Below are positions 622-2,815 of a DNA stretch of 5,454 nt, one piece after another. The position numbers and the translations under genes were made by a program. The notes below the pieces were generated by a model. That model worked only from the letters and a program-made list of their open reading frames with translations. It was not told the origin of the DNA and did not search any database. Position 1 is the first letter of the stretch. Every line of letters begins with the position of its first letter. The stretch spans positions 1-5,454 of the forward strand of contig JAGLKH010000380.1 in assembly GCA_023141985.1 (NCBI GenBank), in the 5' to 3' direction. The DNA comes from Flavobacteriaceae bacterium (GTDB lineage: Bacteria > Bacteroidota > Bacteroidia > Flavobacteriales > Flavobacteriaceae).

Positions 622-629
622 CAAATTTA
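622..629 (-). promoter_or_regulatory. Candidate -7 box of the pyrG promoter
   Basis: On the minus strand this reads TAAATTTG, an exact match to the Bacteroidetes -7 consensus TAnnTTTG, about 20 nt upstream of the pyrG ATG. No clear TTG -33 element is present at the expected 17-23 nt spacing, so the call rests on the -7 box alone. The box overlaps the first two bases of direct repeat copy 1. Repeat copy 2 lacks the outer part of this box because its left neighbour is coding sequence. Confidence 0.4.
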
Positions 630-717
630 CAAATAAGAATTGAAACTTTTTTAATTATCACCAATTAGTTTGGTGTTTGGTATTTACTTCCTGTGTGTTT
701 TTGTAATACAAAAAAAC

Positions 718-747
718 TTGATATCATGAGAAAAACAGCTATCTTCG
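718..747 (+). promoter_or_regulatory. Candidate promoter of the acyltransferase-synthase operon
   Basis: TTG at 718-720 is followed after 19 nt by TATCTTCG at 740-747. This fits the Bacteroidetes sigma-factor pattern TTG-N(17-23)-TAnnTTTG with one mismatch (C for the third T of TTTG). Transcription would start near 752-755, giving a leader of about 55 nt before the ATG at 809. The leader includes a dyad at 761-784. The aligned box in repeat copy 2 reads AATCTTCG and has lost the T of the TA pair. Confidence 0.4.
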
Positions 748-760
748 TTAAACAGTCGTA

Positions 761-784
761 TAATTGAGAATTATACTCTAATTA
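761..784 (+). promoter_or_regulatory. Conserved dyad in the leader (possible operator or RNA hairpin)
   Basis: TAATTGAG at 761-768 is the reverse complement of CTCTAATTA at 776-784 apart from one bulged T (779), leaving a 7-nt centre. The whole element is identical in the second repeat copy at 2760-2783, within a stretch of 27 unchanged bases, while flanking positions differ. It lies just downstream of the candidate promoter. It could be a repressor site or a weak 5'UTR hairpin; it is too AT-rich and lacks the U-tract for a terminator. Confidence 0.3.
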
Positions 785-808
785 TCTAAATATTATTCAT
801 AGTTTATT

Positions 809-1405
809 ATGAGAAAGGCTGCCAAATCAGACATGAATTTAGTTGTAAATATTATTACAGAAACATTCTATAAGAATCCTGGAGTAAATTGGTTGATAAA
901 AAAAAGAGGTACTCGAAAAAAAAAGATACGCAAATTAGCGCAATATGCTTACATTAAATCTTATATGCGTGATGGTGTATACATCTCTTCGAACGGAAAA
1001 GGAGTTGCTCTTTGCTATAAGTTTAATAGCTATAAATTTTCATTTACAGAACTTTGGTATGAATTAAGGTTTGCTTTAACTGCTATTAAAATTTCAAGAT
1101 TGATAAAAGTATTAAAACGTGAAGCACGTCGATGTAGTATAAGGCCAAAATCTGGGGAGTATTATTATTTTTGGTTTTTAGGAGTTTTACCTGAAGGCAA
1201 AGGAGCTGGTTTTGAATTAAATAATGCTATTTTTGAAAAGGCATCAAAAGATAATCTTCCAATATATTTAGAAACAACTATTGAGCGAAATAAAAAAATT
1301 TATGAACGAATTGGTTATAAAGAATACCACTACTGGGAAGATAAAAAAGAAGATATAACATTTTGGTTTTTAAAATGGATCCCTTCTACCGCAAAAACAA
1401 TATAA
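809..1405 (+). CDS. GNAT-fold N-acyl/acetyltransferase (198 aa)
   Basis: GNAT enzymes move an acyl group from acyl-CoA or acyl carrier protein to an amine. The opening MRKAAKSDMNLVVNII matches the first strand and helix of the GNAT fold, which fixes the start at 809 and not at the Met codon at 833. The acyl-CoA loop lies in FLGVLPEGKGAGFELNNAIF at about residues 122-141, with GKGAG in the Q/RxxGxG/A position. Motif B follows as YLETTIERNKKIYERIGYKE (about 153-172). The middle (about 60-110) is rich in Lys, Arg and aromatic residues and may dock to a membrane or carrier protein. There is no signal peptide or membrane span. The stop is 3 nt before the ATG of the oxoamine synthase, so the two genes are almost certainly co-transcribed and translationally coupled. 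The start codon lies inside direct repeat copy 1. The substrate cannot be read from sequence; N-acylation of the synthase product is my inference. Confidence 0.85.
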   Translation: MRKAAKSDMNLVVNIITETFYKNPGVNWLIKKRGTRKKKIRKLAQYAYIKSYMRDGVYISSNGKGVALCYKFNSYKFSFTELWYELRFALTAIKISRLIKVLKREARRCSIRPKSGEYYYFWFLGVLPEGKGAGFELNNAIFEKASKDNLPIYLETTIERNKKIYERIGYKEYHYWEDKKEDITFWFLKWIPSTAKTI

Positions 1406-1408
1406 AAA

Positions 1409-2635
1409 ATGAGCAATGATATTTTAGACAACTTATATGTGAATAAAGGGGCATTCAGTGAGATTATTGAAAATGGTCACGGCTATATCACCTTTCCAAA
1501 GTTGAAAGGGCCTCTAGGCCCAAGAATGAAATTTAACGGAAAAGAAAAAATTGTATGGAGTCTTAATGATTACCTTGGATTAGCTAACCATCCAGAGGTT
1601 TTAAAAACTGATGCAAATGCTGCCGCAAAATATTCAATGGCTTTTCCTATGGGCTCTCGAATTATGTCAGGAAATCTGGATGAGCATGAACAATTAGAGC
1701 AGCTGCTTGCTAATTTTGTTGGTAAGGAGAGTGCGATTCTTTTTAATTTTGGATATCCTGGAGTAGTCTCTTCTATTGATGCCATTCTTAATAGGCAAGA
1801 TGTTGTGATTTATGATGAAGAATCACATGCCTGCATTATTGATGGCGTAAGATTACACTTAGGTAAACGTATGTCTTTTAAACATAATGATATTGATCAT
1901 TTGGAACATCAGTTAAAAAAGGCTCAAAAAATCACTAAGGTTACTGGAGGTGGGATTTTAGTTATTAGTGAAGGCGTTTTTAGTATGAGCGGTAATCAGG
2001 GCAGATTAAAAGATATTGTTGCGTTAAAACCTTCATATGGATTTCGCTTTTTTGTTGATGATGCACATGGATTTGGAGTCTTAGGGAAAACTGGAGCAGG
2101 GACTGCAGAAGAACAAGGTGTTATAGATGATATCGATTTTTATTTTGCTACTTTCGCTAAATCTATGGTATCTATTGGAGCATTTTTAGCAACCAAAGAG
2201 CACGTTGTAAAATACTTATTTTATAACACTCGTTCGCAAGTTTTTGCAAAATCTCTACCAATAGTAATAACTTTAGGTGTTATTAAAAGACTTGAGCTTT
2301 TGAAACAGAATGACCAACTAAGAAAGAAAATGTGGAGTAATGCATTTAAACTTCGAGAAGGATTAATTAAATTAGGACTCTCTGTTGGAAAAGGCGAATC
2401 TCCCATTACTCCTGTTTATATGAATAGCTCGCTCGAAGAAGCAAAAAAAGTGCTGATTGATATTCGCGAAAATCATAATATTTTTTGTTCTGGTGTAGTC
2501 TACCCTGTAGTTCCTAAAGGAACAATCCTTTTTCGATTAGTGGCTACAGCAAACCACACCGATTTAGATATTGAAGAAACCTTAGATGCTTTCAGCAAAG
2601 TAGCTAAAAAGCTAAATGATGGATTCTACAAATAA
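1409..2635 (+). CDS. PLP-dependent alpha-oxoamine synthase (AONS / serine palmitoyltransferase / cysteate acyltransferase family)
   Basis: Family members condense an amino acid with an acyl thioester, with decarboxylation, to give an alpha-amino ketone: KAPA in biotin synthesis, 3-ketosphinganine in sphingolipids, or the 3-keto precursor of capnine in Bacteroidetes sulfonolipids. At 408 aa it has normal family length. Seen: SLNDYLGLANHPEV (51-64), MGSRIMSGN (81-89), the PLP-stacking His in DEESHACIIDG (H140), SEGVFSMSGNQGRLKDI (187-203), VDDAHGFGVLG with D217 and H220, the Schiff-base Lys in TFAKSM (K251), and the carboxylate-binding Arg in LFRLVATANHT (R376). The catalytic set is complete. 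Overall it looks closer to Bacteroidetes SPT-like or cysteate acyltransferase-like proteins than to BioF, and no biotin genes are nearby; the exact amino acid is undecided. It follows the GNAT gene by 3 nt. Its last two codons and stop (TAC AAA TAA) are the first nine bases of direct repeat copy 2. Confidence 0.92.
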   Translation: MSNDILDNLYVNKGAFSEIIENGHGYITFPKLKGPLGPRMKFNGKEKIVWSLNDYLGLANHPEVLKTDANAAAKYSMAFPMGSRIMSGNLDEHEQLEQLLANFVGKESAILFNFGYPGVVSSIDAILNRQDVVIYDEESHACIIDGVRLHLGKRMSFKHNDIDHLEHQLKKAQKITKVTGGGILVISEGVFSMSGNQGRLKDIVALKPSYGFRFFVDDAHGFGVLGKTGAGTAEEQGVIDDIDFYFATFAKSMVSIGAFLATKEHVVKYLFYNTRSQVFAKSLPIVITLGVIKRLELLKQNDQLRKKMWSNAFKLREGLIKLGLSVGKGESPITPVYMNSSLEEAKKVLIDIRENHNIFCSGVVYPVVPKGTILFRLVATANHTDLDIEETLDAFSKVAKKLNDGFYK

Positions 2636-2815
2636 GAATTGAAACTTTTTTAATTATTACCAATTAGTTTAGCGTTTTGTATTAGTTGCCTGTGTGTTTT
2701 TGTAATATAAAAAAAACTTGATCTCATGAGAAAAACAGCAATCTTCGTTAAACGGTCGTTAATTGAGAATTATACTCTAATTATCTCAATATTATTCATC
2801 GTTTATTATGAGAAA
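2627..2815 (+). repeat. Long direct repeat, copy 2
   Basis: This is the second copy of the 628-816 block, at a period of 1,999 bp. It begins with the final two codons and stop of the oxoamine synthase gene and runs into the leader of the membrane-protein operon. Differences from copy 1 cluster at aligned positions 2671-2689. Elsewhere there are single changes, one extra A in an A-run, and one missing A near 2760. It contains the 2760-2783 dyad unchanged, but the -7-like box reads AATCTTCG, not TATCTTCG. Homology ends just after ATGAGAAA at 2808-2815, where copy 1 goes into the GNAT coding sequence and copy 2 does not. Confidence 0.93.

Follow-up and report, generated by a model that had tools for sequence, protein, structure and literature searches.

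Background

Gene cassettes are found in integrons and also at chromosomal places outside them, such as the attG sites that Loot et al. reportedly described in 2024. We report here on a locus of related appearance: a pair of genes, for a GNAT-fold protein and an alpha-oxoamine synthase (AONS), which lies beside the core gene pyrG and is flanked by two 189-bp direct repeats in a stretch of 5,454 nucleotides from a Flavobacteriaceae bacterium (GenBank assembly GCA_023141985.1, contig JAGLKH010000380.1). This stretch, called the window in the following, is one whole contig (G000:C313). We consider it likely that the pair is an integron-type cassette at one of many dispersed sites composed of an arm and a hairpin, and that the repeats go back to a tandem duplication trimmed by a deletion.

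Integrons have rarely been found in Bacteroidetes. The IntegronFinder 2.0 paper (PMC9024848) mentions elements with only an integrase from earlier work and a single complete integron, that of Salinibacter, whereas Bacteroidota is named as one of the integron-bearing phyla in a review (PMC8618304). Cassette insertion into genomes outside integrons is mentioned briefly under the name of attG sites (PMC12901181). Among the matches listed in our literature searches there was no paper on sites of the kind described below in Flavobacteriaceae.

Compared with the site features given in PMC5371416, the system described here has in common with integrons the mirrored start and end of a cassette, units on the same strand, insertion at a GTT-like core, hairpin sites and a cargo of toxin-antitoxin and restriction genes; furthermore, in related genera such units follow a tyrosine recombinase. 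It differs in that many sites are scattered beside core genes instead of being gathered at one attI by the integrase gene, in that every site comes with a promoter-like arm and a mirrored right arm of its own, in that the core is often ATT, and in that the integron-integrase model stays below its cut-off. Recombinase-adjacent arrays do exist in other genera. With attG sites, as briefly mentioned in PMC12901181, it shares cassettes at chromosomal places away from an integrase gene, whereas here the sites form one conserved family of sequence and structure, recur beside the same core genes in several species and have a hairpin and paired arms. With the clusters of attC lacking integrases (CALIN), as outlined in PMC9024848, it shares cassette-type units without an adjacent integrase, whereas here the units are mostly single, at scattered sites that have a promoter-like arm, and are not clustered in one place.

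Results and discussion

A family of dispersed sites

About positions 713-805 of the window, within the repeated block, and a third occurrence at 2811-2876, which overlaps the end of the second repeat copy, resemble intergenic sequences across the five genomes of the genus that we compared. These are G000, to which the window belongs (2.48 Mb in 606 contigs, 77% complete), and G001 to G004, of which G001, G002 and G003 are 81-87% complete. A covariance model was built from 16 such sequences, three of them from the window (sites E1, E2 and E3, Table 1). It has 105 matches in the genus at E<=0.01 (17, 18, 31, 20 and 19 in G000 to G004 respectively), spread over many contigs and beside differing genes. 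Beyond the genus we found matches in 6 of 55 relatives at E<=1e-4, and in a draw from the family that included the genus itself 51 of 397 genomes and 39 of 237 genera had matches at E<=1e-6, where 51 of 397 is a lower bound because the filters were strict. For the tests below, 93 model matches in 90 loci were reduced to 88 distinct sites by dropping two duplicates (L246), two partial sites (L280, L282) and one weak one (L248); 17 of the 105 genus matches are not among these 88.

A site consists of a promoter-like left arm that ends in TTCGTTTAAC, TTCGCTTATCG or similar, followed by a hairpin and by a core of the form (A/G)TT, mostly ATT. The pairing of the hairpin is reflected in covariation, with 17 both-side cells vs 6.6 after shuffling in the picked set, and 133 vs 53 on the 93 model matches, whose alignment was fitted to the model. 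The second-last base of the right core is T in 76 of these 93 sites and the last base in 92. Rfam gave no match on the window at E<=1, and on 18 loci four matches, all of them below the gathering score and none on a site. An exact-pattern search of viral contigs for sites (two patterns) and a search for the E2-E3 sequence in plasmids and phages gave no match either, although diverged copies would be missed by both.

The left arm belongs to the locus, the hairpin and the cargo do not

Sixteen groups of sites, comprising 38 of the 88 sites and 29 pairs, share a neighbouring gene across different genomes of the genus. Within these groups the left halves of the sites resemble each other clearly more than they do after random regrouping (0.818 vs 0.663, 0/2000 permutations). 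The hairpin halves reach 0.638 vs 0.606 (273/2000 permutations), and the 30 bases downstream of the site are at the background level (0.561 vs 0.587). The variable columns 20 and 24 in the left core track the locus, and column 26 does not. Loci that are otherwise unrelated share near-identical hairpins (82 pairs with an identity of at least 90%), hairpins are not more alike within than between genomes (192/1000 shuffles as high), and only five site pairs have a downstream gene family in common, leaving aside the window's double entry. Beside the same core gene, different species often have different cargo at the site; the arm is conserved with the locus, and the hairpin and the cargo are not.

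The place of insertion can be seen best in two sites behind the same gene in two species, one of them empty (L291) and the other with cargo (L281), which are near-identical up to GACGTT and then diverge. We also considered that the site might be an attC in reverse orientation, as its left boundary resembled AA^C, and rejected this, since the L291/L281 pair and the mirrored cargo ends described below put the insertion at the right-hand core. Where two sites lie less than 15 kb apart they are always on one strand (13 of 13 neighbouring pairs), and the cargo between successive sites includes an AbiEi/AbiEii pair (L341) and an Xre/RES pair (L344). An unusually long unit of 8.3 kb, a type I restriction system with methyltransferase, specificity and restriction endonuclease genes, stands between two dispersed sites in G002 (L340 4293-12626, G002:C41).

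Mirrored ends of the cargo

In an integron-type cassette the end mirrors the start. We took the six bases after the core and looked for their reverse complement, with AA behind it, further downstream; words from other sites served as the control. Of the 88 sites, eight without TT at the core were dropped and 12 were set aside as empty. Among the remaining 68, a mirrored cargo end was found at 24 vs 5.6% in the control, and at 22 vs 3.8% when the words were 11 bases long and one mismatch was allowed; cassettes of greater length were out of reach because the loci end about 1.5 kb beyond the site. By crude calls of open reading frames (ORFs), a same-strand stop is no more than ten bases away from 10 of the 24 mirrored ends, and 9 have no same-strand ORF called before them; at least one of the 24 (L271) looks like chance. 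At L238 and L247 the mirrored end is 93 bases past the core with no ORF called, that is, these are very short units without an evident gene. Behind the mirrored end comes a longer stretch, often hairpin-like by eye, and then an arm that mirrors the left arm of the site. Of these 24 sites 23 were covered, and in 11 of the 23 the right arm mirrors the site's own left arm with at most one mismatch, vs 8% with the arms of other sites and 2% in shuffled sequence.

The 12 empty-looking sites have AAACG or AAACA directly past the core and 10 of them face a convergent gene. In the other 76, which include five sites without TT at the core that look empty by eye (L224, L248, L297, L301 and L314), a same-strand gene is next in 59 cases. 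These downstream same-strand genes begin a median of 30 bases past the site.

Some of these features would also be expected if the dispersed element were an ordinary conserved promoter with a structured 5' leader, whose genes turn over by general recombination without a site-specific recombinase: genes on the same strand start at the short distance just given, the left arm is similar to what we take to be the Bacteroidetes promoter, and the hairpin covaries as an RNA leader might. Nevertheless, a leader would have no use for mirrored cargo ends and arms, the ten empty-looking sites in front of a convergent gene show no obvious promoter use, and the near-identical hairpins at unrelated loci also speak against this explanation, which we regard as distinctly improbable.

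The right part of the window (2811-4060) shows the same anatomy of site and cassette. The unit behind E3 starts with GTGTGACAT and its mirrored end at 3964 has one mismatch in 11, which puts it outside the exact-match count. Beside the same neighbour gene (PF12843), G002, G003 and G004 carry other sequence of this kind, the start-end mirror having been covered in G002 (L131).

The 189-bp direct repeat

The original prediction described two direct copies of about 92% identity with a period of 1,999 bp and placed the gene pair exactly between them. The copies were recovered by BLAST (91.6% over 190 columns, spacing 1,999-2,000 bp) as well as by global alignment (176 of 191 columns identical, 11 mismatches and 4 gap columns). 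The pair is indeed flanked by both; nevertheless, the GNAT start codon (809) lies within copy 1 and the AONS stop codon (2633-2635) within copy 2, so "exactly between" does not hold. The absence of a transposase was also correctly seen, as the ORFs between the copies are GNAT and AONS. A transposon with a target-site duplication was rejected on these grounds, and also because 189 bp is too long and the copies have diverged by 8%.

With window positions 600-830 as the query, just the two copy places were found in G000 at E<=1e-3, and there is no full-length match of the block in 59 other genomes. Thus, the whole block has two copies in its own genome, whereas its right half is dispersed, at places that are linked to cargo. 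A dispersed repeat, which the original prediction named as evidence against itself, is therefore present by half. The left part is the leader of pyrG: in G001 it matches window positions 600-675 at 91%, as a single copy, and then other genes follow. Neither copy appears to be clearly older, because in the first 48 bases G001 has 41 in common with copy 1 and 43 with copy 2.

Copy 2 is a second pyrG leader at the end of the AONS gene, and the join between them has just ten bases in common with copy 1. At its other end, copy 2 extends 22 bases past its site into ATTCATCGTTTATTATGAGAAA, where it agrees with the beginning of the copy 1 GNAT unit in 21 of 22 bases. After this remnant it reads into E3, which has no usual upstream arm (TTGACTTTG).

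A GNAT remnant that runs into E3 fits most simply a tandem duplication followed by a deletion. In such a route, the segment leader-E1-GNAT-AONS would have been duplicated in tandem across TACAAATAAG, which is common to the AONS end and the leader, and the second GNAT-AONS would then have been lost by a deletion from GNAT codon 3 into the arm of E3. Judged by the fit of the sequences, we hold this route to be evenly balanced.

Integration of a circle by a single crossover, as the original prediction suggested, comes close to it. A circle with leader and GNAT-AONS would have recombined homologously with the chromosomal leader; its integration there yields the same first product as the tandem duplication, the arrangement and the divergence of about 8% fit two alleles of one leader, and the pair is absent at this place in other species. 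Such a circle would need the pyrG leader joined to the AONS end, and no molecule or strain of this kind was found; besides, integration alone leaves the 22-base remnant running into E3 unexplained. We consider it rather unlikely, and it would change only the origin of the repeat, as the nature of site and cassette may still hold.

The junctions, both of which lie within short shared words, might also be due to template switching in replication or transformation, where copying would have left the leader for an incoming GNAT-AONS and then returned, in both cases at short homologies (TTATTATGAGAAA, TACAAATAAG), giving an insertion flanked by a duplication. Nevertheless, the final 22 bases of copy 2 look like a remnant and not like a chance homology, because they resemble the GNAT unit start over their full length and that start resembles the one in G004 (see below); this makes template switching improbable. 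Finally, the contig is a short one in a genome of 606 contigs, and contigs of G004 also end inside GNAT-AONS, as might happen if the window were a chimeric assembly of two strains. Such an artefact appears very improbable to us, since 15 of 191 columns differ between the copies, whose flanks are also different, the AONS-leader join shares so few bases with copy 1, and a listing gives 2 contigs, the longest of 10,479 bp, for a cluster that includes the GNAT of the window.

The GNAT-AONS pair in other genomes

GNAT followed by AONS is present in the window, in G004 and in two genomes of another genus (G089 and G304). Three kinds of neighbourhood were found, namely pyrG, guaB or another gene, and a third one in the vicinity of a gene that is presumably beta-glucosidase-like. 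In G004 the GNAT gene stands directly behind a site (AACGTT followed by AGTCATAATTTAATG) at another locus than in the window, and on a separate contig TATGACTAAC, which mirrors this start, comes after AONS. In the window the GNAT unit begins with ATTCATAGTTTATTATG, which resembles the beginning in G004. The two G004 contigs (L135 on C25 and L136 on C154) end inside GNAT-AONS and overlap by 781 bp at 94.5%, which would be due to strain variants or a duplication.

In G001, G002 and G003 no match to GNAT was found, and next to pyrG G002 and G003, like G001, have other genes. Therefore, the suggestion that the pair is a module gained and lost beside a core gene is supported, whereas the recurring, cargo-bearing site had escaped the original prediction, which is thus supported in part. 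That the pair is a cassette we regard as very probable.

A candidate recombinase

A tyrosine recombinase would join the cassettes at the (A/G)TT core, and cargo would therefore land downstream of a fixed, promoter-like chromosomal arm. The best match in the genus to TIGR02249, the integron integrase model, is a tyrosine recombinase of 376 amino acids (aa), which is full-length in G004 only, ends after residue 314 in G002 and has a stop in G001; G003 has a 42% relative, also with a stop. The stop in the G001 copy is in frame (L258 1910-4071, G001:C211), and the ORF right beside that copy is one that we take to be transposase-like. Five recombinases, from G004 and four other genera, score 199.6-210.6 against TIGR02249, and four of the five pass the cut-off of 220 of NF040815 (site-specific tyrosine recombinase/integron integrase). 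Sub-threshold matches to TIGR02249 were also found in all 14 control genomes. Membership of a classical integron was rejected, as the integron-integrase cut-offs are not reached.

At five loci of other genera (L357, L358, L363, L364 and L365) a palindrome-like stretch comes right behind the recombinase gene, followed by mostly small genes on the same strand. Considering the next eight ORFs at 11 loci of such Xer/IntI-like recombinases, the start is mirrored at the end in 26 of 68 genes, vs 3.6% of mismatched pairs. The recombinase contig of G004 (L257 position 1, G004:C97) ends at ...CCCTACGTT, where the first unit starts in G009. This contig end would be the presumed crossover core, and the recombinase genes of several relatives are also near contig ends, as variable arrays would cause. 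A gene whose product begins MIKFFRKIR starts with GTGCTTCATTATGAC both in the recombinase row of G036 and behind a dispersed site in G002; its two tested copies are DUF6090. This common gene links the rows with the dispersed sites. Among the 93 model matches in the 90 loci, none was found in L257-L260, around the recombinases of the genus.

Taken this far, the data lead us to propose an integron-like system with dispersed chromosomal docking sites, and tentatively, a little short of an even chance, a scattered integron in the Flavobacteriaceae: promoter-bearing hairpin docking sites all over the genome beside housekeeping genes, for which a Xer-derived recombinase would act in trans. Each site would hold a few exchangeable cassettes (toxin-antitoxin, restriction-modification, lipid enzymes) and express them, in place of one long silent array.

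Several results weigh against these proposals. Regarding the sites, the hairpin is unlinked to the locus, which a plain insertion at the right-hand core leaves unexplained. In a change-point bootstrap the boundary was not sharply placed and its commonest column was 12, not 24-26; invariant columns prevent it from being placed to the base. The left core of the 93 sites is nearly equally AAC and ATC (middle base A in 46, T in 44). Regarding the pair, no mirrored 3' end was found after the AONS gene of the window and no site was detected around the pairs of G089 and G304, and the start and end of the pair in G004 do not come from one molecule, because its two contigs overlap at 94.5%. As for the repeat, the duplication-deletion route is a proposal from the fit of the sequences. 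Regarding the recombinase, none of the five genus genomes exceeds the TIGR02249 cut-off of 265, and the array-type subfamily was not found in G000 at its 77% completeness (best 35%). Furthermore, recombinase presence does not track site presence across genomes: G009, G013 and G025 have the recombinase without sites, and G010 and G033 have sites with just 44% relatives of it.

Genes and edges of the window

The features of the window are collected in Table 1.

Table 1. Position and strand of the features in the window
Feature	Position	Strand	Remarks
pyrG, 5' part (CTP synthase)	2..601	-	PF06418 and PRK05380 matches; core gene beside the site
Direct repeat copy 1	628..816	+	pyrG leader (to about 712), site E1, first 22 bases of the GNAT unit (795-816)
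Site E1	728..794	+	promoter-like arm, left core TTCGTTAAAC 744-753, hairpin, core ATT 792-794; covariance model, 62.1 bits
GNAT-fold protein, 198 aa	809..1405	+	AlphaFold (AF2) model vs puromycin N-acetyltransferase, TM 0.82
Alpha-oxoamine synthase (AONS), 408 aa	1409..2635	+	PF00155
Direct repeat copy 2	2627..2815	+	AONS stop codon, second leader copy, site E2, 22-base remnant of the GNAT start (2794-2815)
Site E2	2728..2793	+	covariance model, 64.1 bits
Site E3	2811..2876	+	core CATT 2873-2876; usual upstream arm missing; covariance model, 80.5 bits
Putative second cassette (VanZ-like unit)	2877..4048	+	small membrane proteins, mirrored 3' end ATGCCACACAAC at 3964-3975, hairpin
Small membrane proteins	2879-3319; 3514-3957	+	3514-3957: weak VanZ match below cut-off
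Right arm GTTAAACGAAAC	4049..4060	+	mirror of the left-arm consensus TTCGTTTAAC
Outer-membrane barrel protein	4412-5026	+	

The 198-aa protein had no Pfam match at E<=0.001 and no NCBIfam match. Its profile match has a value of 1.9e-7, and its AlphaFold model (pLDDT, the predicted local distance difference test, 92.3) matches puromycin N-acetyltransferase (7k09) at the template-modelling (TM) score of Table 1. Therefore, as modelled, the protein has the GNAT fold and had been named correctly.

The AONS matches 11 NCBIfam models, in a comparison with the serine palmitoyltransferase, BioF and Kbl equivalogs, all of them under their own cut-offs. Its nearest solved chain is the cysteate-C-fatty acyltransferase 28eh (508 bits), a sulfonolipid-type AONS. 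A second oxoamine synthase of G000 (L139 2592-5041, G000:C347) reaches 719 bits to 28eh, is 55% identical to the cassette AONS and stands next to a gene that looks to us like cysteine synthase. The C347 copy fits the role of a cysteate-C-fatty acyltransferase better, and the cassette copy is paired with GNAT. The predicted label "lipid-type" for the pair is a fair guess.

To the right of the putative second cassette, remnants of a PF12843-type gene at 4087-4122 and 5055-5099 are separated by about 930 bp that contain the outer-membrane barrel gene; the first 50 codons of the gene were not found within the window. A G+C-rich inverted repeat lies at 5100-5131 and 5386-5417. Between its arms, the peptide of 5235-5351 recalls, in our opinion, a REP-associated transposase; a Pfam search gave no match for it. 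The last 40 bases of the contig (5415-5454) match other G000 contigs (C265, C569, C285, C24 and C69).

Conclusions

If these proposals are true, a common bacterial family would have a cassette-exchange system that has so far gone unrecognised, and the cargo would be expressed at once because each site has its own promoter-like arm. This would explain why the lipid-type pair lies beside pyrG in one species and elsewhere in another. It would also offer a source, open to testing, from which the patchily spread genes for defence, toxin-antitoxin systems and small metabolic functions next to core genes may come.

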